Positions 151 through 64,000 of a DNA stretch of 64,000 bases are shown piece after piece (the first letter of the stretch is position 1; every line of letters starts with the position of its first letter). The stretch covers positions 1 to 64,000 of the forward strand of contig WYBE01000049.1 in the NCBI GenBank assembly GCA_011526045.1, in the 5' to 3' direction. Both the position numbers and the translations under genes were made by a program. A model generated the notes under the pieces. The model worked only from the letters and a program-made list of their open reading frames with translations, was not told the DNA's origin and ran no database searches. This DNA is from Nevskiales bacterium. Its GTDB lineage: Bacteria; Pseudomonadota; Gammaproteobacteria; Steroidobacterales; GCA-2729495.

Positions 151-242
151 GGAACTCATAGCGACGAGCACAGGGACGTGCGAGGAGCGGCACGCGCCGG
201 GGGCACGACCACCGCATCGGCCACCAGCGAGCCGCTGCATTC

Positions 243-293: not shown

Positions 294-694
294 TGACGCT
301 TCCGAAGTCGACAGTTTGGTTCCGCGCGGAATCCGCGGGCGGAGCTGTCTGTGTCCTCAGTGGGCAGGTGCCGGTGATGTGGTGGTCCGGTACCCGCTGA
401 GCGCCGCTCCTCGGGGTGTTGCAGCTGCCCAGTGGCGAGGTTTCAGTCATGCCCCAGGCATGGGGGGTCTCGATCCCGTACCGGAAGGCTGATACACGTG
501 GGTGTCTGTGAGCGCGCCGACGGGCCCCGTTGTCTTGTTGCGTCTTGTCATCCGGTCGCATGGTTCGCGGGTATTTCGCGTGGTGTTGTGACCACAGCTC
601 GTGCCGCACATGGGGTTTCGGCAACTGCGGCCTGTTCCGCGGGCGACTCCTCCTTTAATATCACGGCCTTCTTGGTGCGTTGCAGTTGGTGAAG

Positions 695-1993: not shown

Positions 1994-2008
1994 GGCCCGG
2001 TCGGGCCC
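1993..2008. terminator. GC-rich hairpin after the nitronate monooxygenase-like gene
   Basis: GGGCCC at 1993-1998 and 2003-2008 can pair around GGTC and starts in the stop codon. There is no T-run, so termination here is only suggested by position between converging genes. Confidence 0.3.
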
Positions 2009-2138
2009 AGGCTGATCCGGCCGCACGGCGCGGGAATTGCGGCCGGTGCCGGCAACCTGCTTGTCGCTGGTTGCAGATCCGGAATTTTCTCGCCCGACCC
2101 GGCCATGACAGGTCGGGAGGGCGACCGCTGGCGTTCCG

Positions 2139-2840: not shown

Positions 2841-2856
2841 GTCGGTGGTCCCCGCG

Positions 2857-3468
2857 TCAGAAGAGGTTGTCGCCCAGGATGAAACGAACCCCGGCAAAGA
2901 GGCTGGTGTCCGTGTCGAACACCACGCCGCCGGCGCGCACGGCCACCCACGGCGTGAGGTCGTAAACGATGCTGGCGCGTACTTCGGTGTTGGTGTCGTC
3001 ACCGATGTCGTAGCGCATCACGCCAACCTGGATCTCGGCCCGGTCGGAGAGCATGTGGCGGACCGCCAATTCCGGCGCGAATCCATCGTCGTCCTCGTCG
3101 TCGATTTCCTGGTGGACCCAGTGGCCGCGCAGGATGACGTCGCTGCTCCCGGCGAAGCGGTAGCTCAGGCCGGCGCCGAGTTCGTAGCAGGTGACGTCGA
3201 GATCGTCACTGTCCGTGTCGCCGTCGAAGTAGGCGCCGGTGAGATGCAGGAAATCCACGATACCGAGCGAGCCCTCGGCGGTGTAGCCGGAAATGCCCTC
3301 CGGGTCGGGTTGAATGGCGCATTTCGCGTCGGCCCACTCGTAGCCGGCACCGGCATAGGTGTAGCGCGGCACGGGCACGTCGTCGGCGAGCGCCGCGGCG
3401 GACAGCAGCAGTACGCTGCCAATCAGCCCGCCCGCCGTTCGGGCGAGGTGTCTCGCGAAAAAACTCAT
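2857..3468 (-). CDS. Outer-membrane beta-barrel protein, acidic loops
   Basis: A 203-residue exported protein with a signal peptide of about 28 residues ending ALA, then DDVPVPRYTYAGAGYEW. The strands alternate hydrophobic and polar residues, and the chain ends ...GDNLF with a terminal Phe as in outer-membrane barrels. Loops are strongly acidic (for example EIDDEDDDGF near the middle), which could bind cations. The start ATG is preceded by a GGGGGAT ribosome binding site. It is the first gene of a two-gene operon with the barrel at 2139-2840, divergent from the TonB-dependent receptor. No specific function can be assigned. Confidence 0.72.
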   Translation of the reverse strand: MSFFARHLARTAGGLIGSVLLLSAAALADDVPVPRYTYAGAGYEWADAKCAIQPDPEGISGYTAEGSLGIVDFLHLTGAYFDGDTDSDDLDVTCYELGAGLSYRFAGSSDVILRGHWVHQEIDDEDDDGFAPELAVRHMLSDRAEIQVGVMRYDIGDDTNTEVRASIVYDLTPWVAVRAGGVVFDTDTSLFAGVRFILGDNLF

Positions 3469-3794
3469 GACATCCCCCCGGGAGCAATGGCCGCGAAATG
3501 TTCGTGCGGCCAACAGGGGCGGGACTATAGCGAATCGGTTTTGGGCTTACCACAACGTCAACTGGCGCCTCCAAGGGGCGGGCAGGACATCCCGAAGCGC
3601 ATGGTTTAGGCTATCGCCGCGTGGCGGGCAGGGTGATCAGTATCGATCATCGGCGACATCCTGGCGCGGTAGGATCTGCTCCGGGATCGGCATCTCGAAC
3701 AGCGCGGTGATCGTGGTGACAGACGCTGCCCAAGGCGCGGGGATCGGCTGCGGCGGAGCGGGCCGTGGCCGGACAGGCTAGCAGGGGAACCGAT
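3469..3794. promoter_or_regulatory. Divergent intergenic region, outer-membrane pair / TonB receptor
   Basis: About 325 bases separate two divergent envelope genes, so both promoters must lie here. I see a short dyad TGATC-N6-GATCA at 3634-3649 but no strong sigma-70 consensus. No protein-coding gene is supported in the stretch. Confidence 0.4.
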
Positions 3795-6713: not shown

Positions 6714-6922
6714 GTTCGGCGCGGCCCTCCGGCAGGCGGGGCCTCACGCGGCAGCGGCTCTGCGCAAGGCGACAGTGACCGCCGATCAGGCCGGCGAATC
6801 CACGGCAGGAGCGGACGCATTCGGGCCGGATCCCGACGCGCGCGGGGCCGGGCCGCGCGGCTTTCGGCACCCGTTGCACTCCTTTAAGATGGCGCCGCTG
6901 TAACGTCCACCGGGGAGCCCGC

Positions 6923-8395
6923 TTGGCTTCTTTGCAACACAAGCCTGTATCAGTCGGGATTTCCGGCTTTGCGGCGTATTTGCCGCCGTACCGCGTGGAC
7001 CTGCGGCGCTGGTGCGAGTGGACGGGCGCTTCATGGGACAAGGTGCGCACGGTCGTGGGTACCGGTTTCCGCATGCCGGGTGCCGACCAGAGCGTCTACA
7101 CGATGGCGGCGACCGCAGCCTTGCACCTGCTGGACCAGTACGACGTAGACCCGCAGCGGGTGCGCTACCTCGCGCTCGGCACCGAATCGAGCACGGACAA
7201 CTCGGCCGGTGCAGTCATCGTGCGGGGCATGCTGGATGCGGCGCTGCGCGAACGCGGCCTCGCGCCGCTGAACCGCCACTGCGAGGTGCCGGAGTTCAAG
7301 CACGCCTGCCTGGGCGGCGTGTATGCCATGAAGAGCGCCCTGCGTTTCCTCGCTACCGAACCCGGCGACGCGGCGGCCATTGTTGTCAGCGCCGATGTGG
7401 CGAAGTATGACCTTGGCAGCTCGGGTGAGCCCACCCAGGGCGCAGGTGCGGTGGCGATGCTGATCGAGAAATCACCGCGGCTCCTGGCGGTGGATCTCGG
7501 CGCCTGCGGCAGCGCATCGGCCTACCGGGCCGTGGACTTTCGCAAGCCGATGATGCGCATCAACGGCAACGGCACCTACTTCCGGGAAACCCCGGTGTTC
7601 AACGGCAAGTACTCGACCACCTGTTACCTCGACGAGGCCTTGCAGGCGCTGCGTGACATGTTGTCGCGCATGAAACGCGATCCGCGCGAGTATTTCCGCG
7701 CGGTGCGGGCGGTATTCATGCACCGCCCCTACGAGCGCATGCCATTGAACGCCTTGAGCTTCAGTTATCTGTCCGGGCTGGCGAAGAACGACGGTGCCGG
7801 GCGTACCGAGCTGACCGGCTATTGCGAGGCAGCCGGGCTGCGCGTCGATGACGTGGTCGACGAACTGCGCTCGACACCCGACATTCTCGGTTTTGCCCTG
7901 GAGGGCGAACTGGAGCGGGATCCGTGGCCGCTGACGATGCGGCTGCTGCGTGAGTTCCGCGCCCAGCCGGTGTATCGGGACGTGGTCGCCGCCAAGCTGG
8001 AACTCGGCGCACTGCCGATGCGCGAACTCGGCAACCTGTACTCTGCTTCCCTGTTTGCCTGGATGGCCGCCGGACTGGAAGAAGCCGCCGGCAAGCAACT
8101 CGATCTCGCTAACCAGGAAGTGCTGGCGCTCGGCTACGGCAGCGGCGATGCAGCCGAGGCTATCCCGATGCGCACGGTGCCGCACTGGACGGATGCAGCC
8201 GCGCGAATTGGCTTTGCCGGAGCGCTCCAGCCGAGCGTGAACCTCACCCGCGAGGAGTACGAAGGCCTGCATCGCACCGGCCGCGGGCCGGTCCCGGTGG
8301 CCGGACGCGAGGAGTTCGTGATCGAGCGGGTCGGTAGCAGCACCGCACCCGAATATGCCGACGAGGGTATCGAGTTCTACCGCTACGTCAGGTAG
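6923..8395 (+). CDS. HMG-CoA synthase-like condensing enzyme
   Basis: Thiolase-fold condensing enzyme of the hydroxymethylglutaryl-CoA synthase family, which joins an acetyl unit to a 3-ketoacyl thioester. The catalytic triad can be read directly: Glu88 in GTESSTD, Cys129 in KHACLGGVYAMKSAL and His267 in FMHRPYERMPLNAL, matching the Glu/Cys/His of bacterial HMG-CoA synthases. The 490-residue length exceeds the usual ~390. The start appears to be TTG at 6923, seven bases after GGGGAG; no ATG fits. Gammaproteobacteria normally make isoprenoids by the MEP route and no other mevalonate gene is in the window, so a role in branched acyl-CoA chemistry in the following island is as likely as isoprenoid synthesis. 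Confidence 0.75.
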   Translation: MASLQHKPVSVGISGFAAYLPPYRVDLRRWCEWTGASWDKVRTVVGTGFRMPGADQSVYTMAATAALHLLDQYDVDPQRVRYLALGTESSTDNSAGAVIVRGMLDAALRERGLAPLNRHCEVPEFKHACLGGVYAMKSALRFLATEPGDAAAIVVSADVAKYDLGSSGEPTQGAGAVAMLIEKSPRLLAVDLGACGSASAYRAVDFRKPMMRINGNGTYFRETPVFNGKYSTTCYLDEALQALRDMLSRMKRDPREYFRAVRAVFMHRPYERMPLNALSFSYLSGLAKNDGAGRTELTGYCEAAGLRVDDVVDELRSTPDILGFALEGELERDPWPLTMRLLREFRAQPVYRDVVAAKLELGALPMRELGNLYSASLFAWMAAGLEEAAGKQLDLANQEVLALGYGSGDAAEAIPMRTVPHWTDAAARIGFAGALQPSVNLTREEYEGLHRTGRGPVPVAGREEFVIERVGSSTAPEYADEGIEFYRYVR

Positions 8396-8533
8396 CCGGG
8401 GAGCAGCCGTTCGGCGCCGAGGTGTTTGCAGGGTGACCCGAGGGCGCTCAGCGAGCGTCGCGCTTCGCAGGGTCATGGCGGTGTTCGCCTCGCCGCGGAT
8501 GGCGTGCGGTGCAGCCGTCAGCCGGCCACGGCC

Positions 8534-9433
8534 ATGAGGGTGACAGTGACAGAACGGAGCCGCCGCTACAGGACGCGCGTCGAGCTGGCGCTCGAGCGGA
8601 GCCTGCCGGCGGCAAGCACGCACCCGGCGCGATTCCACACCGCGTTGCGCTACGCAGTGCTCGGCGGCGGCAAGCGCCTGCGCCCCGCGCTGGTGTACGC
8701 GACCGGGGAGTGCATCGGGATCGAGCCACAGCGGCTCGACGCGATAGCGGTTGCCGTGGAGTTCGTGCATGCCTATTCGCTGGCGCACGATGACCTGCCG
8801 GCCATGGACGATGACACGCTGCGCCGCGGACAGCCAACCGTGCATGTCGCCTTCGACGAAGCCACGGCGATCCTTGTGGGCGATGCCCTGCAGGCCCATG
8901 CGTACAGCATCCTGGCTGACCACCCAGCCATGGAGGCTGCCCCTGCCGTGCGCCGCCAGCTGGTTCTGGACCTGGCCCTCGCCAGCGGATCGGAAGGGAT
9001 GGTGGGCGGGCAGATGATGGACGTGGAGACGACCGGGGCGACCGGCATCGTGGCGGCCCAGCTCGATGCACTCTACGCCCGCAAGACCGGAGCGCTGCTG
9101 CGCGCCGCCGTCATCATGCCCTCGCGTCTGCGCCCGGATCTGGGCGTCACCAGCATGGCGGCCCTCGAGACGTTCGCGCGTTCACTCGGGCTCGCCTACC
9201 AGGTCGCCGATGATCTGCTCGACATCGAGAGCCCGGCCGCGGTGAGCGGGAAGCCGCAAGGGTCCGACCTGCGCCACGGCAAGGCAACGATACCGGCATT
9301 GCTCGGTGTCGAGGCCAGCCGGCAGCGGCTGCACACGCTGCGGGCTCAGGCACTGGCCGCGCTGGCGCCATTCGGCGCGGAGGCCGATGCGCTGCGGGAG
9401 ATCTGCGAGCAGGCGACGCGACGCAATCATTGA
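8534..9433 (+). CDS. ispA: Short-chain polyprenyl diphosphate synthase (FPP/GPP synthase-like)
   Basis: Trans-isoprenyl diphosphate synthase that condenses IPP with allylic diphosphates. The 299-residue protein shows GGKRLRPAL (45-53), the first aspartate-rich motif DDLPAMDDD beginning at Asp86 with the IspA-type sequence following (DTLRRGQPTVH), and the second motif DDLLD at about 226-230. It uses the ATG at 8534; the longer upstream frame is non-coding. It is not next to xseB or dxs as ispA usually is, but 138 bases after an HMG-CoA-synthase-like gene, so it could be the housekeeping enzyme or a second copy belonging to the accessory island. Confidence 0.85.
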   Translation: MRVTVTERSRRYRTRVELALERSLPAASTHPARFHTALRYAVLGGGKRLRPALVYATGECIGIEPQRLDAIAVAVEFVHAYSLAHDDLPAMDDDTLRRGQPTVHVAFDEATAILVGDALQAHAYSILADHPAMEAAPAVRRQLVLDLALASGSEGMVGGQMMDVETTGATGIVAAQLDALYARKTGALLRAAVIMPSRLRPDLGVTSMAALETFARSLGLAYQVADDLLDIESPAAVSGKPQGSDLRHGKATIPALLGVEASRQRLHTLRAQALAALAPFGAEADALREICEQATRRNH

Positions 9434-9459
9434 CCGGTCGCCGGCAGGGCGAAGGCCGG

Positions 9460-10218
9460 TCAGGCAGTACGCAGCATCCTGCCCATGGCGGCGAAGCACA
9501 TGTTTGCGGCAAGCGCGACGGCCGCAAGACCGGCGAGAAACGCCGGCCCGATCGCTTCGGGCCGCACGACACCGATGCAACCGACGATCAGGATCAGCGT
9601 GTAACTGGTAAACACCCAGAACATGGTGGTGCGCATGCCGCCGCAGATCGCCGTTTCGACGGACGCCGTGGAACCCTCGACGACCAGTCGTCCGAAGGCG
9701 GCGCCGACCGGGACGAAGGCTGCTTCGATGCCGAGCACCGTCAGGTTGATCAACCCGTAGAGGGCAACCTTGGACGCGAGCCAGCGCGACTCGAACGGAC
9801 CGGCGCCGAAATACGACCAGGCGCCAATCAGCAGCAGCGCACCGCCGAGTACACCGATGATCCCGCGGTTCGCCGCGGCGAGGGTCCGGCCGTAGGGCCG
9901 GTCGGCGTAGTGCGCACCACCGAGGCTGATCGACAACCAGGCGAGCGTGAACAGCCACACGCCGGCGTAGCCCGCGTCGGATATCTCCAGCAGGTTCGCC
10001 TGCCGCGACAAGGCGACACCGGTAGGCAGTGCCAGCGCCCACATCGCCCGTGGCAGCAGTTCGATCAGCAATGCCATCCTGACCAGCATGAGGCGGGTCT
10101 CGAGGGTGAGCCGGCTGTCGGTGGACTTGCGCGCCGCCAGCATCACGCCCATGTCGGTGCCGACCCAGAAGACGAACATCAGGATGTGCAGGTAGCTCCA
10201 GGTCTCCATGGACGACAT
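9460..10218 (-). CDS. Multi-pass membrane protein with HxLxFVFWxGxDxG signature (paralog 1)
   Basis: A 252-residue integral membrane protein with six or seven predicted helices. The first helix carries His11-x-L-x-F-V-F-W18-x-G-x-D22-x-G. The same signature, residue for residue, occurs in the membrane protein at 18294-19073, so the two are paralogs at either end of one gene island. The helix-with-histidine layout recalls CopD-like or cytochrome b-like proteins, where the His can bind copper or haem, but only one obvious candidate His is seen in the helices. It is the only minus-strand gene in the island, convergent with ispA and divergent from the cupin operon. Function unknown; membrane electron carrier or metal handling are possibilities. 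Confidence 0.7.
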   Translation of the reverse strand: MSSMETWSYLHILMFVFWVGTDMGVMLAARKSTDSRLTLETRLMLVRMALLIELLPRAMWALALPTGVALSRQANLLEISDAGYAGVWLFTLAWLSISLGGAHYADRPYGRTLAAANRGIIGVLGGALLLIGAWSYFGAGPFESRWLASKVALYGLINLTVLGIEAAFVPVGAAFGRLVVEGSTASVETAICGGMRTTMFWVFTSYTLILIVGCIGVVRPEAIGPAFLAGLAAVALAANMCFAAMGRMLRTA

Positions 10219-10331
10219 GCGCGGCCCTCCGGGTGCGGTGCGTCCATGCTAGCAGGGGCGGCCGTCGGCACGAGCGCGACATGCCTGGCAGCCGCGGCAA
10301 CGACCACGTAGCGGGTCGGTCGTGAATTCGG

Positions 10332-10368
10332 GTGACGACACCGACTGCCACTCTTAATATTCGTGGCA
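10332..10368 (+). promoter_or_regulatory. Candidate promoter with overlapping operator dyad
   Basis: A -35-like GTGACG (10332-10337) lies 17 bases before a -10-like TAATAT (10355-10360). The -10 is embraced by a perfect dyad TGCCAC-N11-GTGGCA (10346-10368), a geometry typical of an operator that blocks RNA polymerase. It sits 56 bases before the first gene of the bicupin-to-membrane-protein operon. The regulator is not identified in the window. Confidence 0.45.
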
Positions 10369-10423
10369 GAGCAGAGCGGATGAAGCGGGCCCGGTCCGGA
10401 GCGGGCCCAGGCGAGGAGGGCTA

Positions 10424-11329
10424 ATGAGACCCCACGTGGAACTGATCCAGCAGGCCGATCTGTGCTGGCACGACGCCGAATTGCCGCGCGGCGAGGGCCG
10501 TGCCCGGCAGCGCAACATGTCCTACGACGAAGAAGACGGCAGCGCCTCGACCAGGGTCTGCTTCGACTCCGCCTGGCAGCGCCCTGGCGGCTATCACCAC
10601 GCTGACACGGAATGGTACGTGCTGGGCGGTGAGGTGCGTCTCGGCGAGCGTCGCCTCGGCAGGGGACACTACTTCCGGGCGCCGGCCGGCCTGCGAGTGC
10701 CGCCCATGTCGGTCAGGGCCGGGACGGAAGTGCTGTTGTTCCGCGAGTATGGTGACTGGGCGTTCACCGTGTCGGCGAAGAACCGCTCGACATTCGTGCC
10801 ACGTGGCCTCAATACGTCATCGCGCGAAGCCGGGCAGCTCACGGTGCTCGATGCAGCGCGCCTGGAGTGGATGCCGAACATCTACGAGGGCGACACGCAG
10901 CGCTACCTGAAGCTCAAGATGCTCTATCACGATCCGGCGCCAAGCGACGATCCGCGCAAGGGCTTCATGACGATGCTCTGCTGGGCTCCGCCGGGCTGGT
11001 CGGACTCGCGCATGGTCCATCACCCGGTATTCGAAGAGGCCTACAGCATCGAGGGCCATCTCGACTATAACTTCGGCAGGCTCGGCGAGGGCACTTATTT
11101 CTTCCGGCCGGCAAAGGTCAAGCATGGCCATTTCACCGCCGGCGAGGAGAAGGGCTACATGGGTATTTTCCGGCTGGATGGCAGTCTCGTGAACTGGATC
11201 ACCGTCGAGGAGCGGGTCGTCGTCGAAGGCAAGGCGCTCAATTACGACCCGGTTACGCAGGCGCCGTTGATCGCTGGTATCCCGGTTCGTTCGCGATCCA
11301 CTGGTCCATGGGATCTGGATGGCTGGTGA
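10424..11329 (+). CDS. Bicupin protein
   Basis: A 301-residue protein with two cupin folds, a metal-binding beta barrel common in dioxygenases and in cupin-type auxiliary proteins of catabolic operons. The first fold has HHADTEWYVLGGEV (His-His...Glu) and GHYFRAPAG; the second has HHPVFEEAYSIEGHL and later HGH in KVKHGHF, so both metal sites look intact. GAGGAGGG ends five bases before the ATG. It is the first gene of a seven-gene plus-strand operon and its TGA overlaps the next ATG by one base. No close enzyme class is recognised; an oxygenase acting on an acyl or aromatic intermediate is one possibility. Confidence 0.7.
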   Translation: MRPHVELIQQADLCWHDAELPRGEGRARQRNMSYDEEDGSASTRVCFDSAWQRPGGYHHADTEWYVLGGEVRLGERRLGRGHYFRAPAGLRVPPMSVRAGTEVLLFREYGDWAFTVSAKNRSTFVPRGLNTSSREAGQLTVLDAARLEWMPNIYEGDTQRYLKLKMLYHDPAPSDDPRKGFMTMLCWAPPGWSDSRMVHHPVFEEAYSIEGHLDYNFGRLGEGTYFFRPAKVKHGHFTAGEEKGYMGIFRLDGSLVNWITVEERVVVEGKALNYDPVTQAPLIAGIPVRSRSTGPWDLDGW

Positions 11330-55953: not shown

Positions 55954-56030
55954 CGGGGCGTGGCGCAGCCTGGTAGCGCACCTGCATGGGGTGCAGGGGG
56001 TCGCTGGTTCGAATCCAGTCGCCCCGACCA
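55954..56030 (+). tRNA. tRNA-Pro (GGG), integration site
   Basis: 77-base cloverleaf: acceptor CGGGGCG/CGCCCCG, D-stem GCGC/GCGC, anticodon stem CCTGC/GCAGG with loop ATGGGGT (anticodon GGG), T-arm GCTGG-TTCGAAT-CCAGT, discriminator A, encoded CCA. The tRNA is intact and the mobile element begins directly after it, so its 3' half is the probable attachment core. No second copy of the 3' end is in the window. Confidence 0.97.
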
Positions 56031-56050
56031 ATAAAAACAGGTAGTTACGG

Positions 56051-56072
56051 AACGGCCCCAGAGGCCGTTTTT
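56051..56072 (+). terminator. Intrinsic terminator
   Basis: AACGGCC (56051-56057) pairs with GGCCGTT (56063-56069) around CCAGA and runs into TTTTT, a standard Rho-independent terminator for tRNA-Pro. On the other strand it may also limit element transcription into the tRNA. Confidence 0.8.
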
Positions 56073-56076
56073 CTTT

Positions 56077-56098
56077 GGGGGACAGTCAGGGGGACAGT
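56077..56098. repeat. Direct repeat GGGGGACAGT next to the attachment site
   Basis: GGGGGACAGT at 56077-56086 and again at 56089-56098, a 12-base period (one helical turn). It overlaps the stop codon of the adjacent element gene. Position suggests integrase arm-type or excisionase sites. Confidence 0.6.
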
Positions 56099-56574
56099 TT
56101 TGCGGACTGCCCCTCGAGCACCCCGGCCACCCCCTCGGCCGTCACCGGGTCCACCTCCGCCAGCAACATGATGCCGGCCCCGATCATCGCCATGCCGATC
56201 ACGCCCCGGTCGAGGTCCAGGTCATCGGCCAGCTCGAGCAGGCGGCGGGTGATCTGCATGGCATGGTCGGCGGCAAACTTATTCGCATCGCGAATTAGTT
56301 GTCCGTGGTGTTCTCCAATCAGGGACCACCGCGCCGCCACCGATTGCTTCATCCCAAACCGCGCCTTTGCAAACTCCGCGAACCTCGAGCCGCCTTGCTT
56401 GCCGTGGTTCGCTTGGCAGTCCTGATAAAACTCATGCCACCGCCGAGCTCGCTCGAGGATGGCGTTCTCGATGCCGACCTCGCGGATGTAGGTTTCCCAT
56501 TCGTCCTCTGTCCGGTGGCCGTGATCGAGAATCTCCCCGGTCTGCACGTCAACGACTGCCACAGCGCGAGCCAC
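56086..56574 (-). CDS. Phage-type hypothetical protein
   Basis: 162 residues, starting with GTG after a GGAGGGGGG purine run. Reads AVAVVDVQTGEILDHGHRTEDEW at the N-terminus, a helical middle (FAEFAKARFGMKQSVAARWSLIGEHHGQLI, resembling a ParB/KorB-like HTH) and a hydrophobic C-terminal helix. It is the element gene nearest to the tRNA. A small DNA-binding protein is possible; no family is recognised. Confidence 0.6.
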   Translation of the reverse strand: MARAVAVVDVQTGEILDHGHRTEDEWETYIREVGIENAILERARRWHEFYQDCQANHGKQGGSRFAEFAKARFGMKQSVAARWSLIGEHHGQLIRDANKFAADHAMQITRRLLELADDLDLDRGVIGMAMIGAGIMLLAEVDPVTAEGVAGVLEGQSAKLSP

Positions 56575-56647
56575 CTAACCCCCCTCCCCGATCTTCTCTC
56601 GGTGGTCGGGACTTGCGGATTTCGGGCCGGGTTCCAGTGGGCGTGCG

Positions 56648-56848
56648 TTAAATCGGATGCCGATGGGAGAGAGCGGGGTGGCCGGCAGGATAAGCGCCTG
56701 ACGGCGGCGCAGCCGCGGCGTCCACCACCGCGAGAGCCTGAGCCTCATGCCAGCCCTCGACGATCTGGAATTGCGCCCACGCCGGGAAGCCGCCGCAGGT
56801 GATCCAGGGCAGAATCGGGACAGATTGTCCGCGGCGGCGGACGATCAT
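56648..56848 (-). CDS. Small element protein, 66 aa
   Basis: The ATG at 56848 overlaps the stop of the next upstream gene as ATGA, which supports translation. N-terminus MIVRRRGQSVPILPWITCGG, then AWAQFQIVEGWHEAQALAVV and an Ala/Pro-rich tail. Unknown function. Confidence 0.5.
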   Translation of the reverse strand: MIVRRRGQSVPILPWITCGGFPAWAQFQIVEGWHEAQALAVVDAAAAPPSGAYPAGHPALSHRHPI

Positions 56849-57069
56849 ACGATCAGAGGGATCAGGCCCGGCCGGCTGACATGAGACCGGCCGGGCCGCC
56901 CATCCGACACAACGGACAGATGCGCGCCCCGGCGCCCGCACCTCGAGCCGGTCACGCGAGCGGTGCGCTCCGGGTCAATCACGGTGCTGCGCCGGCAGCC
57001 GGGACAGTGCGCGTGCAGGCTGTAGAGCCGCGAGTAGTCGGCGAGGGTGCAGAGCACGATGGGCGTCAT
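56845..57069 (-). CDS. Small Cys-containing element protein, 74 aa
   Basis: MTPIVLCTLADYSRLYSLHAHCPGCRR: a His-Cys-x2-Cys knuckle near residue 21 with another Cys later in SRCGRRG, perhaps a zinc finger. Both ends overlap neighbours by 4 bases, indicating a real operon gene. Confidence 0.55.
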   Translation of the reverse strand: MTPIVLCTLADYSRLYSLHAHCPGCRRSTVIDPERTARVTGSRCGRRGAHLSVVSDGRPGRSHVSRPGLIPLIV

Positions 57070-57347
57070 GCGCCGGTCGCCGTCGAGAGAATGCGTTGAA
57101 TCGCCTCCGGCGTCAGGTGCCGGTGCGGGTCAATCGTGCTGATTGAGCCGGACGGGAACGCCGCCTCGATCTCGGCCACGGACTCAGCCAGCCGGCCGAA
57201 CCGGCGCTCGTAGATCTGGCGTGCGACGTGCTCCTGCAATCGACGGTAGGCGCGGAGCTGGCGGGAGAGGCGGTCTCGCTCGAGGTCGTCCAGGGTGCCC
57301 ACCGCCGAAGCATATCGCAGGTTGGGCCCAGGGCCCCGGCCGGGCAT
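57066..57347 (-). CDS. Small helical element protein
   Basis: About 93 residues; the supported part reads TLDDLERDRLSRQLRAYRRLQEHVARQIYERRFGRLAESVAEIEAAFP, a charged amphipathic helix, then an Ile/Arg-rich end. The start is uncertain: ATG 57347, GTG 57302 (78 aa) or GTG 57374. Its stop overlaps the next ATG. Unknown function. Confidence 0.5.
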   Translation of the reverse strand: MPGRGPGPNLRYASAVGTLDDLERDRLSRQLRAYRRLQEHVARQIYERRFGRLAESVAEIEAAFPSGSISTIDPHRHLTPEAIQRILSTATGA

Positions 57348-57431
57348 GGAGAAACCGGCCGGAGCCCTTCCCACCCGTCACGCGGCACGGCAACGGACGG
57401 AGGCCGCCGCGTGCGGATTCAGTGCGACGCA

Positions 57432-58529
57432 TCAGGCGCCGTCGTTGTAGAACATCCCGCGGAAGTCGAGCGCGCACACGCCGAAGTCGAAGCGCACGCC
57501 GAACACGGTTGCGTCGGTGTTCCGGCTCAGCGCCTTCATCGGCCCGACAATCGGCGCCGGCTCGCCTTCGCCGACGAAGCCGAGCGCCAGCGTGTCGAAC
57601 AACAGCGGATCGGCGAACAGATACCAACCAGTAGCGGAGAAGTCGTCGAGCCGTGCGCTCACCACCACCTCGAGCGGATCGGCACCGGGGCGCGCTTCGC
57701 TCGCTGCCAGCACGTTTGCCGTGCCCTCGAGTGCAGCCGGAACCAGCAACGTTTTAGCCGGCGTGTTCATGCGCCTCGTGCTGTTCTGGTCCTGTTGTTT
57801 CCTGAGCGCAGCGCGCGCGACGTTGAGCGTTGACACGCTTGGCGCTGCGCCGCTGGTGATGTAATTCGCGTGCCCGGATGCATCGAACAGCGCGGTAGAG
57901 TCCTGCGCCAGCGTCGGGCCAACGCCGCTGTTACTGGTGAGCAGGTCGATCAGCGCATCGTCAATCGTCCAGGCGGCCGCACGGCCAACGGCCTCGGCGA
58001 GGCGCAACGTTGCGGTAAGGTCGCCGGCCAGCATCGCCTCGCGGGTGAACGCGATGTTTTCGCCGAAGGTCGCAGCGGTGAGGGTTTCCGCACGCGCGGC
58101 GATCGCAGGCGTACGCGCTTCACCGGCCTGGGGCATTGAGCGCAACGACACCGGCGTGTCGAGGGTCGCGCCGGCCGGCGTCGGCAGGTGGTTTTTCAGC
58201 TGAACGGGGCGCGCGATCGCGCGCCAGATACTCGGCGCATTGGCGAAGCCTTCGCCGACGGCGCGCGTAACGGATTGCTGCACATAGCTGGCGATGTCCA
58301 CGGTGCCGATGCCGATTGAGCGGACAGCCTCCCGTATGACGGCAGCATCATCAGGCAAGGCGCGATGGGCGACGCCCTGATAGTCGAGAATCTGCCGGCA
58401 CCGGCGCGCCCAGGTATCGGAACGGAAGTCGGCGGCTGCGGGATGCGCGCTGCGGACGGCAACGCCGGCATTGAGCAGGTCGGCATCGATTGACGCGGAC
58501 AGCGCCTCGGCGAGTGGGGAATAGCTCAT
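57432..58529 (-). CDS. Phage major capsid-like protein (HK97-fold type)
   Basis: 365 residues. The pattern DSTALFDASGHANYITSGAAPSVSTLNVARAALRKQQDQ, KTLLVPAALEGTANVLAA, DDFSATGWYLFADPLLFDTLALGF and C-terminal RFDFGVCALDFRGMFYNDGA is that of the capsid half of phage ClpP-protease/capsid fusions and Mu-gpT-like head proteins. Here it is a stand-alone protein without a protease domain. Start ATG 58529 overlaps the preceding stop (ATGA). Building an icosahedral shell is inferred from the family. Confidence 0.75.
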   Translation of the reverse strand: MSYSPLAEALSASIDADLLNAGVAVRSAHPAAADFRSDTWARRCRQILDYQGVAHRALPDDAAVIREAVRSIGIGTVDIASYVQQSVTRAVGEGFANAPSIWRAIARPVQLKNHLPTPAGATLDTPVSLRSMPQAGEARTPAIAARAETLTAATFGENIAFTREAMLAGDLTATLRLAEAVGRAAAWTIDDALIDLLTSNSGVGPTLAQDSTALFDASGHANYITSGAAPSVSTLNVARAALRKQQDQNSTRRMNTPAKTLLVPAALEGTANVLAASEARPGADPLEVVVSARLDDFSATGWYLFADPLLFDTLALGFVGEGEPAPIVGPMKALSRNTDATVFGVRFDFGVCALDFRGMFYNDGA

Positions 58530-58987
58530 CGTGAAACCTTGCGGACGGGGCCGCGTTGTAACCACGCGCTGATTGCAGCATCCGGGGCGGGAGTGTCAAA
58601 ACCCCCCGGTTCTGACACATCGCCGGACCGGGAACCGCGGAGCACGCGAAGAATCTGCCGCCAGCCCGGCCGGTCGCGTACCTCACGCAACAGCGGCGCC
58701 GCGGCCGGCGGTGCATCGCCTGAGCGGAGCCAGGTTTCAACCGTGTGCGCCTTCTGTGTCACGCCACCGGGGGCGATTGCAGCAAGGTCGCGCAGCCGGT
58801 CATCACGCAGCGCCAGGCGGGCGGCGCGGGACGTGCCGAAAACGTCGGCTGCATCCTCGCCGGCGACGATCCGCGCGAGCGCGCCAGCGAGCCAGCCGCG
58901 AAGGTCGGGCGGCAACGGCCGGTCGGCCTCGAGCAGCGCCACGCACCGGCGCAGGGCAGCGAAGTTATCCGCGGGCGCCGTTCTCAC
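58526..58987 (-). CDS. Hypothetical element protein between Nu1-like and capsid genes
   Basis: 153 residues from GTG 58987, helical and Arg/Ala-rich (FAALRRCVALLEADRPLPPDLRGWLAGALARIVAGEDAADVFGTSRAARLALRDDRLRDLAAIAP). GAGG precedes the start; it overlaps both neighbours. Position before the capsid gene hints at a scaffold or packaging role, but this is speculation. Confidence 0.55.
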   Translation of the reverse strand: MRTAPADNFAALRRCVALLEADRPLPPDLRGWLAGALARIVAGEDAADVFGTSRAARLALRDDRLRDLAAIAPGGVTQKAHTVETWLRSGDAPPAAAPLLREVRDRPGWRQILRVLRGSRSGDVSEPGGFDTPAPDAAISAWLQRGPVRKVSR

Positions 58988-59492
58988 GTTTCGCCTCGCC
59001 GGCAAGCGCGTCGGCGTGCGCCGTGAGTGCTTCGGCCATCTGCACCCGAGCCGCACGGCAGGCATCGGCCAGGACGCGCCGGCACTGGTCGGGATCGCTG
59101 GCAGCCGCCAGGTCGGCGGTAACGGCGCCGACCAGCCGGTCGAGCTCGTGGTCGAGGATGGCCTGATAGGCGGCAACGTCCCGTTGCACGTCGTCGCGGG
59201 GGAGCAGACTGGCGGCGCGGCTTGCGTTGTCGAGCTCGTGACCGCGGCGTTGTTCGACGATCAGCTTTCGACGTTCTGCACCGAGCGGCCCACCGCTTGC
59301 CCGTGCGACCTCGGCATCGCGTTGGCGGCGCCATACCAGGCAATCGGACAGATTGAACCGGCCCGGCGCAGCCTGTGGCATCCCGCTGCGGTGCCAGTCG
59401 TGGATCACGCCACGGGTCACGCGAAACAGCTTCGCCAGCGCGATCGCCGAGCAGGTGTAGTTGCGAGCTTGTTCGGCATCAGCTTTTGCCAT
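58965..59492 (-). CDS. Nu1-like phage DNA-packaging protein
   Basis: 175 residues. An N-terminal MerR/Nu1-type HTH (SAIALAKLFRVTRGVIHDWHRSGMPQ) followed by FNLSDCLVWRRQRDAEV, then a long helical region, the architecture of lambda Nu1/terminase small subunits (DUF1441). It would recognise packaging DNA. The large terminase partner is not seen in the window. Overlaps the next gene by 23 bases; AGGTGA lies before the ATG. Confidence 0.68.
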   Translation of the reverse strand: MAKADAEQARNYTCSAIALAKLFRVTRGVIHDWHRSGMPQAAPGRFNLSDCLVWRRQRDAEVARASGGPLGAERRKLIVEQRRGHELDNASRAASLLPRDDVQRDVAAYQAILDHELDRLVGAVTADLAAASDPDQCRRVLADACRAARVQMAEALTAHADALAGEAKRENGARG

Positions 59493-59610
59493 GCTTCACC
59501 TGGAGTTGTTCACCTCAACCTTGCGCCAAAAAATCGTCACGACACGGGCACGTCCGCCGACCCGCCCGGAAGTCAAAACAAGGACCCGCGATAGTTTCGA
59601 TCCGACACCA

Positions 59611-60192
59611 TCAGCTTTGCACCCCGTAGCGTGCCAGCGCACGACGGATGCGCGCGTGATACTCGCGCTCGAATATGCGCTGTCCGGCTGCTCCGCTGAC
59701 GTTCTCGTCGAACTGCTTTGTCAGCCGTTGCCGCAATCCGATCTTCGGCACCATCAGCGGCGTGCGTGCTTCGCCCCGGCGCTTGAACACCAGGCGAGCG
59801 TAGCGGGTGCCCTGCGGCCTGAATGCGCCCTTGTAGAATCGGCCGCCTTTCGCCTTCACCCCGCCACCGGGTCGTCGCAGTTGTTGTCCTGCGATCTGCG
59901 AGACTGGCAGGCCGCGCATGTACACCTCGAGCTCGGCGGCCAGATGATTGACGGAGGCGCGGCGAATCTTGGTTCGCCGATCCTTCACCCGGCCGGAGAG
60001 ATCGAATCTGTTTCTGACGTAACGCTCGGGGAGATTGATCTCCTGCGCGACAGTTGAGATTGCAGACTTCTCTGCCAGCGTCGCGGTGCGGTTGATCGCG
60101 TCACGGGTGAGTGACGGCAGCCGCTTGGCGATCCGTGAGAACTCGCGTGCGGCCTGATTCATCTGCGCCTTGACGTTGAGTTTCATAACCAT
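59611..60192 (-). CDS. Minor tail protein Z (GPZ)-like protein
   Basis: 193 residues, very basic. MNQAAREFSRIAKRLPSLTRDAINRTATLAEKSAISTVAQEINLPERYVRNRF matches the lambda GPZ-like minor tail family, which finishes tails. It is odd to find it directly behind a primase block and before the packaging gene, with no tail-tube or tape-measure genes visible. Start ATG 60192 or 60186. Confidence 0.68.
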   Translation of the reverse strand: MVMKLNVKAQMNQAAREFSRIAKRLPSLTRDAINRTATLAEKSAISTVAQEINLPERYVRNRFDLSGRVKDRRTKIRRASVNHLAAELEVYMRGLPVSQIAGQQLRRPGGGVKAKGGRFYKGAFRPQGTRYARLVFKRRGEARTPLMVPKIGLRQRLTKQFDENVSGAAGQRIFEREYHARIRRALARYGVQS

Positions 60193-60193
60193 G

Positions 60194-60436
60194 TTATGCA
60201 GCTCCCGGTGGTGTGTGGATGACGGTCAGCCCCGGCCCTGCCAGTGAATCACGGGCATGGGCCACGGCATCGAGGACGGAATGCAGGAGCAGTCTCCGGC
60301 CCCACCGGATCGTTACTTCGACCTCGGCGTCCTCCGCTTCACACTCGGCCAGGGTGATGAACAACAGCGCGGCGAGTGCCAGGTTCAAGGTTTCGGCCGG
60401 GGTGTCGGCGATCAGTTGGTTTACAGGTTTACTCAT
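60194..60436 (-). CDS. Small element protein, 80 aa
   Basis: N-terminal MSKPVNQLIADTPAETLNLALAALLFITLAECEAEDAEVEVTIRWGR, a hydrophobic helix and an acidic/basic tail. Overlaps the 35-residue gene upstream by 8 bases and ends one base before the GPZ-like gene. Unknown function. Confidence 0.55.
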   Translation of the reverse strand: MSKPVNQLIADTPAETLNLALAALLFITLAECEAEDAEVEVTIRWGRRLLLHSVLDAVAHARDSLAGPGLTVIHTPPGAA

Positions 60437-60536
60437 GGTCCCTCCGGGTTAAGGTGAACAGCGCGAGCACGGCCACCATGACGATGATCGTCACGACGTT
60501 GTAGATGATGCTGGCGACGGTGAGTAGGTCGATCAT
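60429..60536 (-). CDS. 35-residue single-span membrane peptide
   Basis: A very short gene: MIDLLTVASIIYNVVTIIVM then VAVLALFTLTRRDHE. One uninterrupted transmembrane helix with a positive C-terminus. A strong AAAGGAG at 60542-60548 precedes the ATG, and the stop overlaps the next gene, so it is probably translated. Holin-like, toxin-like or regulator of a membrane protein are possible. Confidence 0.6.
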   Translation of the reverse strand: MIDLLTVASIIYNVVTIIVMVAVLALFTLTRRDHE

Positions 60537-60629
60537 GGCGGACTCCTTTCAGGCAGCCGGCGGCAGGTCCGGCGGGGGTGGGTCAACGGGCACCGGGCGT
60601 CGAGGCGGTAGGTCATGGGGCCACGTCCT

Positions 60630-60643
60630 CGCGCGCGCGCGCG
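60630..60643. repeat. (CG)7 tract
   Basis: Seven CG dinucleotides in a row, able to form Z-DNA under negative supercoiling; located upstream of the 35-residue gene. Confidence 0.7.
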
Positions 60644-60658
60644 TTCCTTATCTAAGAA

Positions 60659-60799
60659 TGTCCCTATGTCCCTAATAGAGAGAGAGAAGGGGATACAGGG
60701 GGGTAATAGGGACATCGGGGGGTGCAATAGGGACACCACCGGGGACGGCATAACCCTATGACCGGCGGGCGTTGCGGCCCATTGGGGACATTGGGGACA
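60659..60799. repeat. Cluster of GGGACA / TGTCCC motifs
   Basis: Exact copies: TGTCCC at 60659 and 60667, GGGACA at 60709, 60730, 60785 and 60794, plus near copies at 60742 and 60803. The first two face the others as inverted ATGTCCCT...AGGGACAT; the last pair is GGGGACATTGGGGACAT. The same GGGGACA core recurs beside the tRNA (56077-56098). Confidence 0.65.
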
Positions 60800-60810
60800 T
60801 AGAGACATAG

Positions 60811-62631
60811 CTACTCCGCGGTCTCGCCGATCCGAGTGAGTCGCAGCCCCCGGCTGGCGCGGGTCTCGATCTGGTAGCCCTTCCACGTCGTCCGAGCGGC
60901 CCGCATCATGCGGGTGATGGCGCGTTTCACTGCACCGGGGGACTTGCCCACGGCGTCGGCCAAAGCGCGACTGGCGATCCATTGCCCCGGCGTGTCCCCA
61001 TTGATGTCCAGCGCGGCCTCGAGGATGTCCTGCTCGGCCTGCGTCGCCGCGACTGCGGTCCAGTAACCGAGGCTGCGGAAGCTCGCGTCCTCCTGCTGTT
61101 CCACCGCGAGCATGATGTCGTCCCTGATATCGCGCCCGCGGATACCGAGCACGCGACGTTTATCCTCGTCGTCGCCCACCTGCCGGTCCGGTGGGTCGGC
61201 GAGCACGATGCTGCCGGATGCACCGGCCAGGGCGACGTTCGTCCGGTTGACCAGCTCGTGCAGGTCGAGGTAACCGCCGTTCCTGCGCTTGCTGGTGTGG
61301 TTCACCAGTCCGACGAAAGCACGGTGCTTGAGCGCGATCCGGTCGAAGTCGCGGGTCTCGCCGTAGTCGCGCGCCTTGATGTCCTTCGCCCTGCCTGCCT
61401 CGCCGTCCCAGATCGCGCGACACGTCGCCTCGGTGTCGAGGATCAGCATTTTCGTGCTGGGGTGGGCGCTCAGGTAGCCGTCGAAAAAATCGCCGAGCGA
61501 CACGTGGCCATACTGTGCGGCGAGGGCGCGAAACTGCTCACCGAGCATGATCCGCAGGCCCGCCGGCGGATCGCCGCCGCCGATGATCGCGAACCGATCC
61601 TTGATTCGGGCGGCGTCGTCCTCGGCCGCGACATAGAGGACGTCCGTCCTCCCGAGACTGGCGTAGCCGAGAAACGATTGGCCGCGCGCAGCGGCGAGCG
61701 CGAGTTGCAGCAGCAGCCAGGACTTGCCGATTTTCGGCCGCCCGACGATCAGAAACGCGCCCGCCGGGATGATCGAGTCGAAGAACCACGTCCGCGGCGG
61801 GACATGCGTCGCCTGCACATCGGCGAGTGTGGGGACGACGATGGCATCGAATCGGATGGGGTCGGGCGCGGCCTCGCTGCCGTCCCATCGTGCCGCCTGC
61901 GCCAGGATGCCGGCCACCTCGGCATCCGGCAACGGTGGCCTGCACATGCCGGTGTTGATCGCGTTGATCATCGTCGCCAGGGTGCCGCCCGCATAACCGG
62001 CCCGGCGCAGACGCCCGGCCTCGCGGGTCAGGTAGTTATTACGCTGGCCCTCGGGGATCGCACCGGTGGCTGCATGATCCGCACCGTTGCCCGCGCCCGG
62101 TGCATGGCGCGCGACAATCGCGGTCAGATCAGGCAGTCCCTCCTCGGCATCACCCACCTGCCATGTCTCGCCCGTCCACGCGCAGAACCGCCTGCTGGTG
62201 TATATCTCGATGCCTGCGGTTTTGCGCGTCACCGATGCGGTACACAGGCCGAAGATGTGCAGCCCGCGGCCCGACTGCGAAACGCAGATCAGCGCGCCGG
62301 CCTCGCGCGCCGCGTCGAAGATCGCGCGCTGTTCTGCGGTCCCGATGAAATCGCGCGATTCACTCAGGCAGTTGTCGAGATCGATAAAAACCAGCGGCGG
62401 CGACACGTCCAGTCCGACGCTGAAACCCTTGCCGTTCATCGCCAGCGCCGCATCCTGCGCCTGCTCGAAAGTCACCAGGCGCGAGCGGTCGGCGGCCTCG
62501 CCGATCCGTCCGCGGCGCAGAGTACCGTCCGCATAGTGCGGTACCTTTTTCGGCTTTTCGCCCGCCGCGCCGCCCTCCAGGCGCCAGAGGAGCCAGCGGG
62601 GGTCATTCACAATGTCGGCCAGCGTCGTCAT
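60811..62631 (-). CDS. Primase-polymerase/AAA helicase replication protein
   Basis: 606 residues. N-terminal archaeo-eukaryotic primase-like domain: VFIDLDN with acidic pair Asp84/Asp86 and SQSGRGLHIFG (118-128). A PriCT-like helix region (about 195-245) joins it to a RecA-like ATPase with Walker A GRPKIGKS (297-304), Walker B MLILDTEA (Asp399) and RNGGYLDLHELVNRTNVALAGASGS. C-terminal winged helix (GKSPGAVKRAITRMM). Such proteins start replication of phages, satellites and plasmids. ATGA overlap with the gene before. Confidence 0.85.
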   Translation of the reverse strand: MTTLADIVNDPRWLLWRLEGGAAGEKPKKVPHYADGTLRRGRIGEAADRSRLVTFEQAQDAALAMNGKGFSVGLDVSPPLVFIDLDNCLSESRDFIGTAEQRAIFDAAREAGALICVSQSGRGLHIFGLCTASVTRKTAGIEIYTSRRFCAWTGETWQVGDAEEGLPDLTAIVARHAPGAGNGADHAATGAIPEGQRNNYLTREAGRLRRAGYAGGTLATMINAINTGMCRPPLPDAEVAGILAQAARWDGSEAAPDPIRFDAIVVPTLADVQATHVPPRTWFFDSIIPAGAFLIVGRPKIGKSWLLLQLALAAARGQSFLGYASLGRTDVLYVAAEDDAARIKDRFAIIGGGDPPAGLRIMLGEQFRALAAQYGHVSLGDFFDGYLSAHPSTKMLILDTEATCRAIWDGEAGRAKDIKARDYGETRDFDRIALKHRAFVGLVNHTSKRRNGGYLDLHELVNRTNVALAGASGSIVLADPPDRQVGDDEDKRRVLGIRGRDIRDDIMLAVEQQEDASFRSLGYWTAVAATQAEQDILEAALDINGDTPGQWIASRALADAVGKSPGAVKRAITRMMRAARTTWKGYQIETRASRGLRLTRIGETAE

Positions 62632-62828
62632 GCTGTGCCCTCCGCGTCGAGCAGTCGCAGCTCAACCTGCGCGGCAATGTCCCGATGATCGCGATAACAG
62701 CGCGCGGCACGCGCCGAACACTCAGCGCAGAGCAGGTGCGGATACTCGCGGCCGTCGTGCGTGACGTACAGGCACGGCGTGGCGTCAGCGCCAGCACGGC
62801 CGCCACAGGCAGCGCAACAGGCACTCAT
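62628..62828 (-). CDS. Cys-rich mini-protein, probable zinc finger
   Basis: 66 residues with two Cys groups: CCAACGG near the N-terminus and LLCAECSARAARC around 33-44. Could coordinate one or two zinc ions. Both ends overlap neighbours by 4 bases. Function unknown, possibly a DNA-binding helper of the primase. Confidence 0.6.
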   Translation of the reverse strand: MSACCAACGGRAGADATPCLYVTHDGREYPHLLCAECSARAARCYRDHRDIAAQVELRLLDAEGTA

Positions 62829-63061
62829 GCCGTGCCTCGCGCGAGCCAGGTTTGCACTTGGTCAAGCGGCAATCGCAGCGCCTGCGATATATCGGCCGCG
62901 GTCAGGCCGCTGTGAAACATGCGCATGACCTCATCGTGCAGGCCAGCGTCGTCGGGCCGGTTCGCCTGTGCGCGACGAATGTATTCGTCGTCGGTGACGT
63001 GCCCGGCCAGCGCGGCGAGTGCTGGGTTGTCGAGCTTGCCGGCGATGCGGCGGCGGGTCAT
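62825..63061 (-). CDS. Small helix-turn-helix protein
   Basis: 78 residues. The C-terminal part MFHSGLTAADISQALRLPLDQVQTWLARG looks like a homeodomain-type HTH. Overlaps on both sides by 4 bases. Candidate regulator of the element or binder of the GGGACA motifs. Confidence 0.6.
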   Translation of the reverse strand: MTRRRIAGKLDNPALAALAGHVTDDEYIRRAQANRPDDAGLHDEVMRMFHSGLTAADISQALRLPLDQVQTWLARGTA

Positions 63062-63954
63062 AGCGTCGCCCTCGCGCCGTCGAGCCGGCTCTGCCAATCT
63101 TTCAGAAAATCGGCCATTGAGTCGGTTTCAACACCTTCGATTTCTCTTGCGCGGCGCCAGGCCGCCTGATCGATAAAGTTTTGGATCGCGACTTCAACCT
63201 TTTCGCGAAGGCGCGGCGGTGGCATGGCGTCCACCTCCCAGCAGCGCGTGCCGTACCGCCCGACAAACCAGCGGTAGCGCGCATCGCCCGACTTGCTGGA
63301 TGCAGCGAAACCCGGCAGGGCGGCAACGTCATCCCGTCGCAGCGCGACGCGCATAACGGTGAGGCGGCCTCCGTAGCGCGCCAGTCGTTCGGGCAGGTCG
63401 ATCTCTGACATGTACAGACCGGAGGGGTCGAAGTCTCCGACGTAGAGCACCGTCAGCGGGCGGGGGTCCGATACTGAGTCGTCGGCCGCGCCGCGCACGA
63501 CGGTTGCGCTGGCGAAACCGTGCATGACGCGGAACGAAAGTCCGTACTCGTTGAGGATCGGTGCGAGGGTGCCGCGCACCGTGCCCTTCTCACTCCACAC
63601 CTCCAGGCGCAGCGGCTGATCCTGCCAATAGTCGCGCCGGTACTGGCGCACAGCCGCGGTGATGATGGCGTTCGGATTGCTCCAGGTGCCGGCGAGCTCA
63701 GGCTCGCGCGTCTCATCGACAAGCCACTCCCACGGGATGAGTCCTTCCTCGCGAGCAGCAACGAGAGCCCGGCTCACCTTATCGGTGGACAGCTTGCCCA
63801 TGTCGGCGATCAGGCCGAGCGTAAAGAGGCGGTAGCACACGGCCCGGACCGTTGCAGGCTGTATCTCAGCGAGTATTTCGCGGCTTGCCTCAATAAGCCT
63901 GATCGTGGCTTGAGCCCTGCCTCGCCCGCGTCGCCTGACCGGCATGGCGTTCAT
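63058..63954 (-). CDS. Stand-alone Spo11/TopoVI-A-like protein
   Basis: 298 residues with the layout of topoisomerase VI A/Spo11: an N-terminal winged helix with a candidate catalytic Tyr41 in TVRAVCYRLF and VSRALVAAREEGLIPWEW, then a TOPRIM domain with Glu122 in WSEKG, GFAS and Asp174/Asp176 in YVGDFDPSG. No B (GHKL ATPase) partner is seen. Stand-alone A-like proteins are known from mobile elements. It could nick or break DNA during replication or recombination. The ATG at 63954 overlaps the preceding stop. Confidence 0.7.
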   Translation of the reverse strand: MNAMPVRRRGRGRAQATIRLIEASREILAEIQPATVRAVCYRLFTLGLIADMGKLSTDKVSRALVAAREEGLIPWEWLVDETREPELAGTWSNPNAIITAAVRQYRRDYWQDQPLRLEVWSEKGTVRGTLAPILNEYGLSFRVMHGFASATVVRGAADDSVSDPRPLTVLYVGDFDPSGLYMSEIDLPERLARYGGRLTVMRVALRRDDVAALPGFAASSKSGDARYRWFVGRYGTRCWEVDAMPPPRLREKVEVAIQNFIDQAAWRRAREIEGVETDSMADFLKDWQSRLDGARATL

Positions 63955-64000
63955 CCCCGCACGCCCTCCAGCAGCACGGCCATCTGGCGCTGATGCCATG
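63951..64000 (-). CDS. 3' end of a further element gene (partial)
   Basis: Only the last residues are inside: ...QRQMAVLLEGVRG followed by TGA, whose bases overlap the ATG of the Spo11-like gene. The frame runs off the right edge. No function can be given. Confidence 0.5.
   Translation of the reverse strand, partial: WHQRQMAVLLEGVRG

Follow-up and report, generated by a model that had tools for sequence, protein, structure and literature searches.

What kind of mobile element pairs a Spo11-like protein and a primase-helicase with a capsid gene next to a tRNA-Pro gene of a Nevskiales bacterium? The stretch in question, referred to below as the window, comprises bases 1-64000 of the 203,024-bp contig WYBE01000049.1, from a genome of 3.65 Mb in 76 contigs (assembly GCA_011526045.1). 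An earlier note on its sequence described, at the right end of the window, a block of genes for TopoVI-A-like, helix-turn-helix (HTH), Cys-rich and primase-helicase proteins followed by GPZ-like, Nu1-like and capsid-like genes, an observation that is confirmed here, and it offered two explanations, the edge of a prophage or a capsid-carrying satellite. We consider it probable, at about two chances in three, that the element, 11,098 bp in length, is a phage satellite that is complete, integrated and dependent on a helper. This reading follows from its attachment (att) repeats, an empty site in a related genome, an intact integrase, genes for replication, overlapping genes for a small terminase subunit (TerS), a 153-aa protein and a major capsid protein (MCP), and the fact that no portal, large terminase subunit (TerL) or protease was detected. 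Exploitation of a helper is suggested by the genes that are missing from the element.

Boundaries and empty site

An exact direct copy of the 54-bp 3′ end of the tRNA-Pro gene lies beyond the window at contig 67080-67133 (attR). The complete genome of a member of the same species (G101) contains the empty site, matching the left flank to 56035 (99.4 %) and the right flank from 67080 (99.6 %), with the 54-bp core as the overlap between both matches. The G+C content of the element is 65.6 % vs 62.1 % and 62.5 % in the 20-kb flanks. To the left of tRNA-Pro are open reading frames (ORFs) which we recognised by eye as resembling host pheS, pheT, ihfA and a MerR regulator, while past attR host-type genes encode a Rieske oxygenase, a cupin and a nitrilase-type hydrolase. 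The locus is therefore a discrete integrated element with an integrase and att repeats, as a satellite would be. Both the second tRNA-Pro 3′ end and the integrase that the earlier note had asked for are present, the latter between 64000 and attR, and in place of the portal, large terminase, tail and lysis genes that it said would make this an ordinary prophage, the stretch to the right of 64000 holds regulator-like genes and the integrase. The prophage edge is ruled out because the contig continues and the att sites close the element; the satellite option is the one that stands, with a closed element in which neither portal nor TerL was found. A scan of the right end of the element for promoters and terminators gave nothing above chance.

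A head gene set without detected motor or portal

The genes of the element are listed in Table 1. The 153-aa gene has 23 nt in common with TerS and an ATGA with the MCP gene. The MCP consists of a mature HK97-fold domain without a protease domain, its ATG sitting just before the mature domain, and it aligns with the C-terminal MCP part of protease-MCP fusions (303-644 of 644 in PHROG 4523, 340-667 of 668 in PHROG 133). Structure matches of its predicted model (predicted local distance difference test, pLDDT, 81.8) in PDB are HK97-fold capsids, the first being the JBD30 procapsid (E 2.5e-9). Encapsulins, which share this fold, are also among the matches and would be compatible with an encapsulin-like compartment or another non-virion use of a free HK97-fold protein, an explanation that we regard as highly improbable since the sequence families are those of phage capsids (PF25209, PHROG 133/4523) and the neighbouring genes are TerS and GPZ. 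The 153-aa protein gave no tblastn match in phage records and no Pfam match with a query one start codon short; its likeness to a 149-aa protein located between TerS and MCP in the element L145 described below (30 residues, 36.7 %, E 0.014) is suggestive only. The frames for MCP, TerS, GPZ, primase and TopoVI-A show the G+C-by-position pattern of coding sequence, using a script in whose automatic choice two antisense frames beat the integrase and which did not include the 153-aa frame.

To look for the missing functions we collected the 120 ORFs of ≥ 130 aa that this element and three relatives (L099, L100 and L104) have on either strand, 109 of which were scanned against PHROGs, the 11 integrase, TopoVI-A and primase frames being left out. 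Among the matches listed for the 109 ORFs (25 of the 35 matching PHROG families, so that a weak one could be hidden among the rest) there was no TerL or portal family, and the same scan recovered the MCP, TerS and GPZ families. Scans of the element's genes one by one against Pfam and PHROG likewise returned no TerL, portal, protease, tail-tube or baseplate gene, bearing out the earlier remark that portal, large terminase, protease and tail module are not visible, and leaving GPZ as the sole neck- or tail-related gene. Protease-annotated families do match the MCP frame, over the C-terminal MCP part. The portal, TerL and tail genes of a temperate phage or prophage were thus not found inside the att sites and, as in satellites, the virion gene set is not a full one. 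Since neither was found, the element probably takes its packaging motor and entry gate from another virus.

Relatives of the MCP occur at 36 IMG/VR loci. At the best-scoring 18 of these the relative forms part of a 518-872 aa frame matching the protease-MCP model, and at the remaining 18 it lies in frames of 208-430 aa, some of them cut by contig ends. Two IMG/VR phages, L120 and L086, have the gene order GPZ-TerS-TerL-portal-...-protease-MCP, and the element is 59 % (GPZ), 39 % (TerS) and 37 % (MCP) identical to L120; on account of this gene order and these identities an L120-like phage is the best candidate found for the source or helper lineage. The shared order of GPZ, TerS and MCP, together with the fused frames at the best-scoring loci, would also be expected of a decayed prophage, in which deletions had removed TerL, portal, protease and tail from a phage of the L120 type and what remained was drifting. 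We find this unlikely: no frame is visibly broken, MCP, TerS and GPZ retain a coding-type G+C bias, TerS, the 153-aa gene and MCP overlap in operon-like fashion with an ATG directly preceding the mature domain, and the att sites and integrase frame are intact. Decay is also at odds with the recurrence of the same subset of genes in the bounded element L145 and on the contig L153, a pair in which the subset shows purifying selection and transfer from element to element.

The head genes on other backbones

A search with the MCP in class-level relatives, in which 12 of the 369 genomes matched (own included), led to L145 in genome G421, an element of 9,706 bp closed by a 58-bp tRNA-Leu repeat. It encodes an integrase, a primase-like protein that BLAST does not match to the primase of our element, a TerS-like protein (PHROG 57, 1e-10, plus weaker HTH matches), 80-aa and 149-aa proteins, a protease-MCP 31.7 % identical to our MCP over 379 columns, and a GPZ (PHROG 27, 5e-20), which has no BLAST match to the GPZ of our element though both are assigned to one PHROG. 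The search of L145 turned up neither TerL nor portal nor TopoVI-A. L153, an IMG/VR contig of 9,145 bp with open ends, encodes a TerS (PHROG 57, 4e-23) and differs in its integrase and primase; no TerL or portal was found within it. Both share a cassette of 3,530 bp with 97.3 % identity that spans the genes for the 80-aa and 149-aa proteins, protease-MCP and GPZ. Beyond the cassette they match only over 157 bp (78 %) and 60 bp (97 %), and their integrase, primase and TerS genes show no match like that of the cassette. Within it we counted 60 synonymous changes over 835 sites and 27 nonsynonymous changes over 2492 sites, a ratio of nonsynonymous to synonymous rates (dN/dS) of 0.147, and no stops. 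Because decay would neither keep selection nor move a cassette as a unit, these sequences suggest that head genes can function, and move, as a set lacking motor and portal, and the L145/L153 cassette is the strongest evidence for this.

With the GPZ of L145 as query, four of 339 class genomes matched: G421 itself and the genomes holding L179, L180 and L181. L179 and L180 are phages, their GPZ sharing a stretch with TerL and portal. L181 (G405) is 8,953 bp in size, closed by a 47-bp tRNA-Arg repeat, and encodes a protease-MCP of another lineage (PHROG 617/10), a 428-aa tape-measure-like protein (9854-11137) and GPZ; hidden Markov models (HMMs) run locally and ORF sizes gave no TerL or portal. 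A further tape-measure-like protein is encoded at 14215-16227 of L112, near a protease gene in a small element, and both proteins may fix how long a helper tail becomes.

Head genes as apparent cargo of a TopoVI-A backbone

A scan of GTDB species genomes with the alignment of the TopoVI-A-like protein yielded 33 loci, and IMG/VR yielded 10. The family is sparse, as only four of 296 genomes of the order and three of 369 of the class matched, our own being included in each count. Eight elements of 9.0-13.4 kb have exact repeats at both ends, one of the two copies lying within a tRNA gene: the present one (Pro), L089 (Thr), L097 (Arg; a repeat of only 17 bp), L099 (Pro; two adjoining blocks), L100 (Val), L102 (Arg), L104 (Glu) and L117 (Arg). 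L088 is a ninth, its bounding repeat of 14 bp lying at the end of a tRNA-Ser. Five of the nine (this one, L099, L100, L104 and L088) have an MCP without detected portal or TerL, a call that for L088, which was outside the ORF-wide PHROG scan, is based on HMMs and ORF sizes. The MCP is the sole head gene found in L099 and L100; in L104 TerS is followed by a 145-aa gene and the MCP, and in L088 the MCP is followed by a separate protease gene. A full head is encoded by one of the nine, L097, whose TerL (L097:16057-17553) is 62.5 % identical to that of HK022, and no MCP was found in L089, L102 and L117. Likely cargo in elements without detected MCP includes a PD-(D/E)XK nuclease (L117, 12714-14105) and an FG-GAP repeat protein (L089, 7984-9486). 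Outside these counts are L105, L118, L090 and L096, which have an MCP and are cut by contig ends or unbounded, likewise L058 with a full head, and L112, in which a 22-bp repeat surrounds the protease and tape-measure-like genes without a tRNA. Among unbounded contigs, L050, L053 and L052 each have MCP, protease and portal, to which L050 and L053 add TerL.

On the TopoVI-A tree, 18 of whose 40 inner branches are open, head content requires 17 changes vs a shuffled mean of 18.2 (as low in 36 of 200 shufflings) and shows no overall clustering; loci without head label do cluster (10 changes vs 14.3). By BLASTN against the other eight bounded elements, DNA in common with L088, L097, L099 and L104 is confined to the TopoVI-A gene (67-72 %), and with L100 to the tRNA end. 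Head states being unclustered and DNA likeness being limited to these parts, the head genes look like cargo exchanged on a common TopoVI-A backbone. Two capsid lineages are present: our MCP is of the PF25209 type and those of L099, L100 and L104 are of PHROG 617/10, with L088 (PF05065) in the latter HMM group. The TerS, MCP and intervening gene of L104 align poorly by BLAST with those of our element, so the L104 capsid belongs to a different lineage. The TopoVI-A genes of L056 and L104 are sisters (support 98), and TerS is followed by a full-length lambda-type TerL in L056 and by the MCP, with no TerL detected, in L104.

A solitary MCP such as that of L099 or L100, or one lacking a protease domain in an element where no portal or scaffold gene was recognised, might instead serve as a weapon that co-assembles with the helper capsid protein and spoils helper heads, the island itself riding in helper-made heads via its TerS. 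This seems quite unlikely to us, given that GPZ, TerS and MCP occur together in our element, L145 and L153, which points to head completion, and that the protease is retained as a fusion in L145, L153 and L181 and as the gene following the MCP in L088.

We put forward tentatively, at somewhat less than even odds, a class of 'split-head' satellites that carry MCP, TerS, GPZ and at times a tape-measure protein and obtain portal, motor and tail from a helper, the head genes forming a mobile cassette present on at least three integrase-replication backbones and in two capsid lineages (PF25209 and PHROG 617/10). If such a class exists, MCP would govern head size, TerS the choice of DNA, GPZ the fit of head to tail and, in L181, the tape-measure protein the length of the tail.

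Table 1 Features of the element and its insertion site. Coordinates are contig positions; the genes of the element run on the minus strand and are transcribed from right to left
Feature	Position	Strand	Basis
Host tRNA-Pro (GGG), integration site	55954..56030	+	ARAGORN
attL, 54-bp core beginning inside tRNA-Pro	55982..56035	.	Exact direct repeat comparison
162-aa protein	56086..56574	-	ORF
102-aa protein	57066..57374	-	ORF
MCP, 365 aa from ATG	57432..58529	-	PF25209 2.7e-26, PHROG 4523 4.8e-48
153-aa protein, GTG start	58526..58987	-	Sequence
TerS (Nu1-like), 175 aa	58965..59492	-	PHROG 57 2.5e-17
GPZ / Neck1 / tail completion protein, 193 aa	59611..60192	-	PF06763 1.3e-14, PHROG 27 6.6e-21
80-aa protein	60194..60436	-	ORF
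Six ATAGGGACA-type repeats, both orientations	60658..60808 (repeats 60659-60799)	.	Pattern search
Primase-helicase, 606 aa	60811..62631	-	PriCT_1 4.4e-9, AAA_25 7.7e-19
Cys-rich protein, 66 aa	62628..62828	-	ORF; no Pfam family
HTH-like protein, 90 aa	62825..63097	-	HTH_23 0.0014, under curated cutoff
TopoVI-A/Spo11-fold protein, 361 aa	63058-64143 (window ends 64000)	-	PHROG 6247, 37-row alignment, fold
Regulator between integrase and TopoVI-A gene		-	RovC-type and Trans_reg-type matches, both sub-cutoff
69-aa AlpA/HTH-like protein		-	PHROG 597 6e-7; HTH_17 0.079, below cutoff
Protein next in order after 69-aa HTH-like protein		-	Zn-binding match, sub-cutoff
Tyrosine integrase, frame unbroken	65388-66869	-	Profile scans

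Replication region and TopoVI-A-like protein

All six matches to the ATAGGGACA-type pattern within the 64 kb fall between the primase gene and the 80-aa gene, the pattern having been chosen after the repeats were seen. A 14-mer with three mismatches allowed was found four times vs 3.33 expected, which is not above chance, all four in the repeat stretch. The cluster is a candidate replication origin. The primase as query found no relative in IMG/VR and one weak match in plasmids.

Topo VI A subunits and Spo11 are marked by a Glu and a DxD in the Toprim domain and a conserved Arg-x3-Tyr in the preceding domain, and the 361-aa protein has each of these motifs in the corresponding domain. Its fold is equally close to a nuclease of C. 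glutamicum, and a sequence search against PDB chains gave chance matches only. No Topo VI B subunit or fused ATPase domain was recognised among the scanned genes of the element, no dedicated search having been made. A homolog of the adjacent 90-aa HTH-like protein adjoins TopoVI-A in L068. By description and fold the protein can be likened to the A-subunit relatives Mini-A and Topo VIII, which according to the sections cited are mostly found on mobile elements (PMC8185306, PMC8084294). The present family ties a TopoVI-A/Spo11-fold protein to a satellite backbone spread over many proteobacterial genomes.

A second island in the same genome

The 162-aa gene includes a 161-bp stretch 80 % identical to DNA at the start of contig C40 of the same genome. 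Positions 1-9771 of that contig (L004) form a second capsid-bearing island, with a large serine recombinase at tRNA-Met, a primase-like gene, an MCP (PHROG 10 type), a TerS (PHROG 83 type), an HNH endonuclease and a paralog of the 162-aa gene. As the contig starts inside the island, TerL or portal may lie beyond; the flank is matched in G101 from the tRNA-Met end outward. The protein encoded at L004 1143-2018 has a tail that, judged by eye, we take to be PEP-CTERM-like, and its gene may be cargo derived from a host. The host genome also contains a repeat of ~125 bp (98-100 % identical) at the start of two contigs (C40:1-127, C65:1-124) and internally in a third (C74:85714-85843).

Weighing the satellite reading and a proposed course

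Several observations count against a helper-dependent satellite. No helper was identified among the prophages of the same genome or the phages compared. Three prophages of that genome carry TerL, portal and protease-MCP; their MCP is just 23-25 % identical to ours, no relative of GPZ or TerS was found in the 20-kb stretches read, and a possible role as helper is not supported. The absence of a detected MCP from three of the nine bounded elements makes capsid genes optional cargo in the TopoVI-A family, and an HK97 capsid without a portal gene could be a decoy. The open ends of L153 mean that TerL or portal could lie outside the contig, and our element was found in one genome, dN/dS being measured on the L145/L153 cassette instead.

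On the satellite reading, an active helper phage would lead the island to excise and to replicate from the repeat region with its own primase-helicase. The island TerS would then recognise island DNA and dock on the helper TerL, as in some Staphylococcus aureus pathogenicity islands (SaPIs). The protease-free MCP may form heads, or mix into heads, on the portal and the scaffold/protease of the helper; such heads would probably be smaller, fitted to 11 kb, and GPZ would join them to the helper tail. Least certain is the step assigned to the TopoVI-A-like protein, which probably acts in making or resolving DNA breaks during replication, or else in an attack on the helper. A capsid protein encoded by a satellite would have to work with the portal, motor and scaffold of another virus, and could show which of the head proteins set the size of the capsid and the choice of cargo, and which can be exchanged for one another.

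Comparison with known systems

P4-like satellites resemble the element as integrated replicating islands that use a helper virion. The size-determination protein Sid of P4 acts on helper capsids, and a P4 procapsid entry with Sid is among the PDB matches of the MCP model. Classical phage-inducible chromosomal islands (PICIs) have an AlpA-type regulator near the integrase and are not known to carry structural genes beyond packaging or redirecting ones. The element shares with PICIs and SaPIs a small size, integrase, regulators, replication genes and, as in some of them, TerS, with no TerL, and differs in having its own MCP and the neck protein GPZ, structural genes outside the classical PICI set. 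Packaging is redirected by a TerS that certain SaPIs encode (PMC10690885), SaPIpT1028 redirects helper capsids by the protein Rcm, and SaPIs do so with proteins such as Rcm or CpmB (PMC12409344).

Some tycheposons carry capsid or terminase genes. Tycheposons and VEIMEs, compared here by description only, are proposed marine satellite families, listed in the part of a review cited here alongside P4-like elements, PICIs, capsid-forming PICIs (cfPICIs), PLEs and PICMIs (PMC11389934). We recognised no description of satellites with MCP and TerS and without portal and TerL in the literature covered, which did not extend to the primary cfPICI, tycheposon and VEIME papers, and the novelty of such a satellite in print is not established.

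The closest likeness is to cfPICIs, which as described in the cited part of PMC10690885 encode MCP, protease, portal, connectors and both terminase subunits and need only tails. Integrase, primase, TerS and a satellite-encoded HK97-fold head protein are common to both, the element having its own MCP and TerS. However, neither a TerL nor a portal of its own turned up in the 109-ORF PHROG scan or an HMM search, and no separate maturation protease was detected. Gene sets like those of cfPICIs, with MCP, protease, portal and TerL, occur in the same TopoVI-A family in L050, L053 and L097. The satellites described in the texts covered use small proteins to remodel the capsids of helpers or else produce the whole head themselves, and the element is best read as a variant between PICI and cfPICI, a plausible step from one to the other in either direction.

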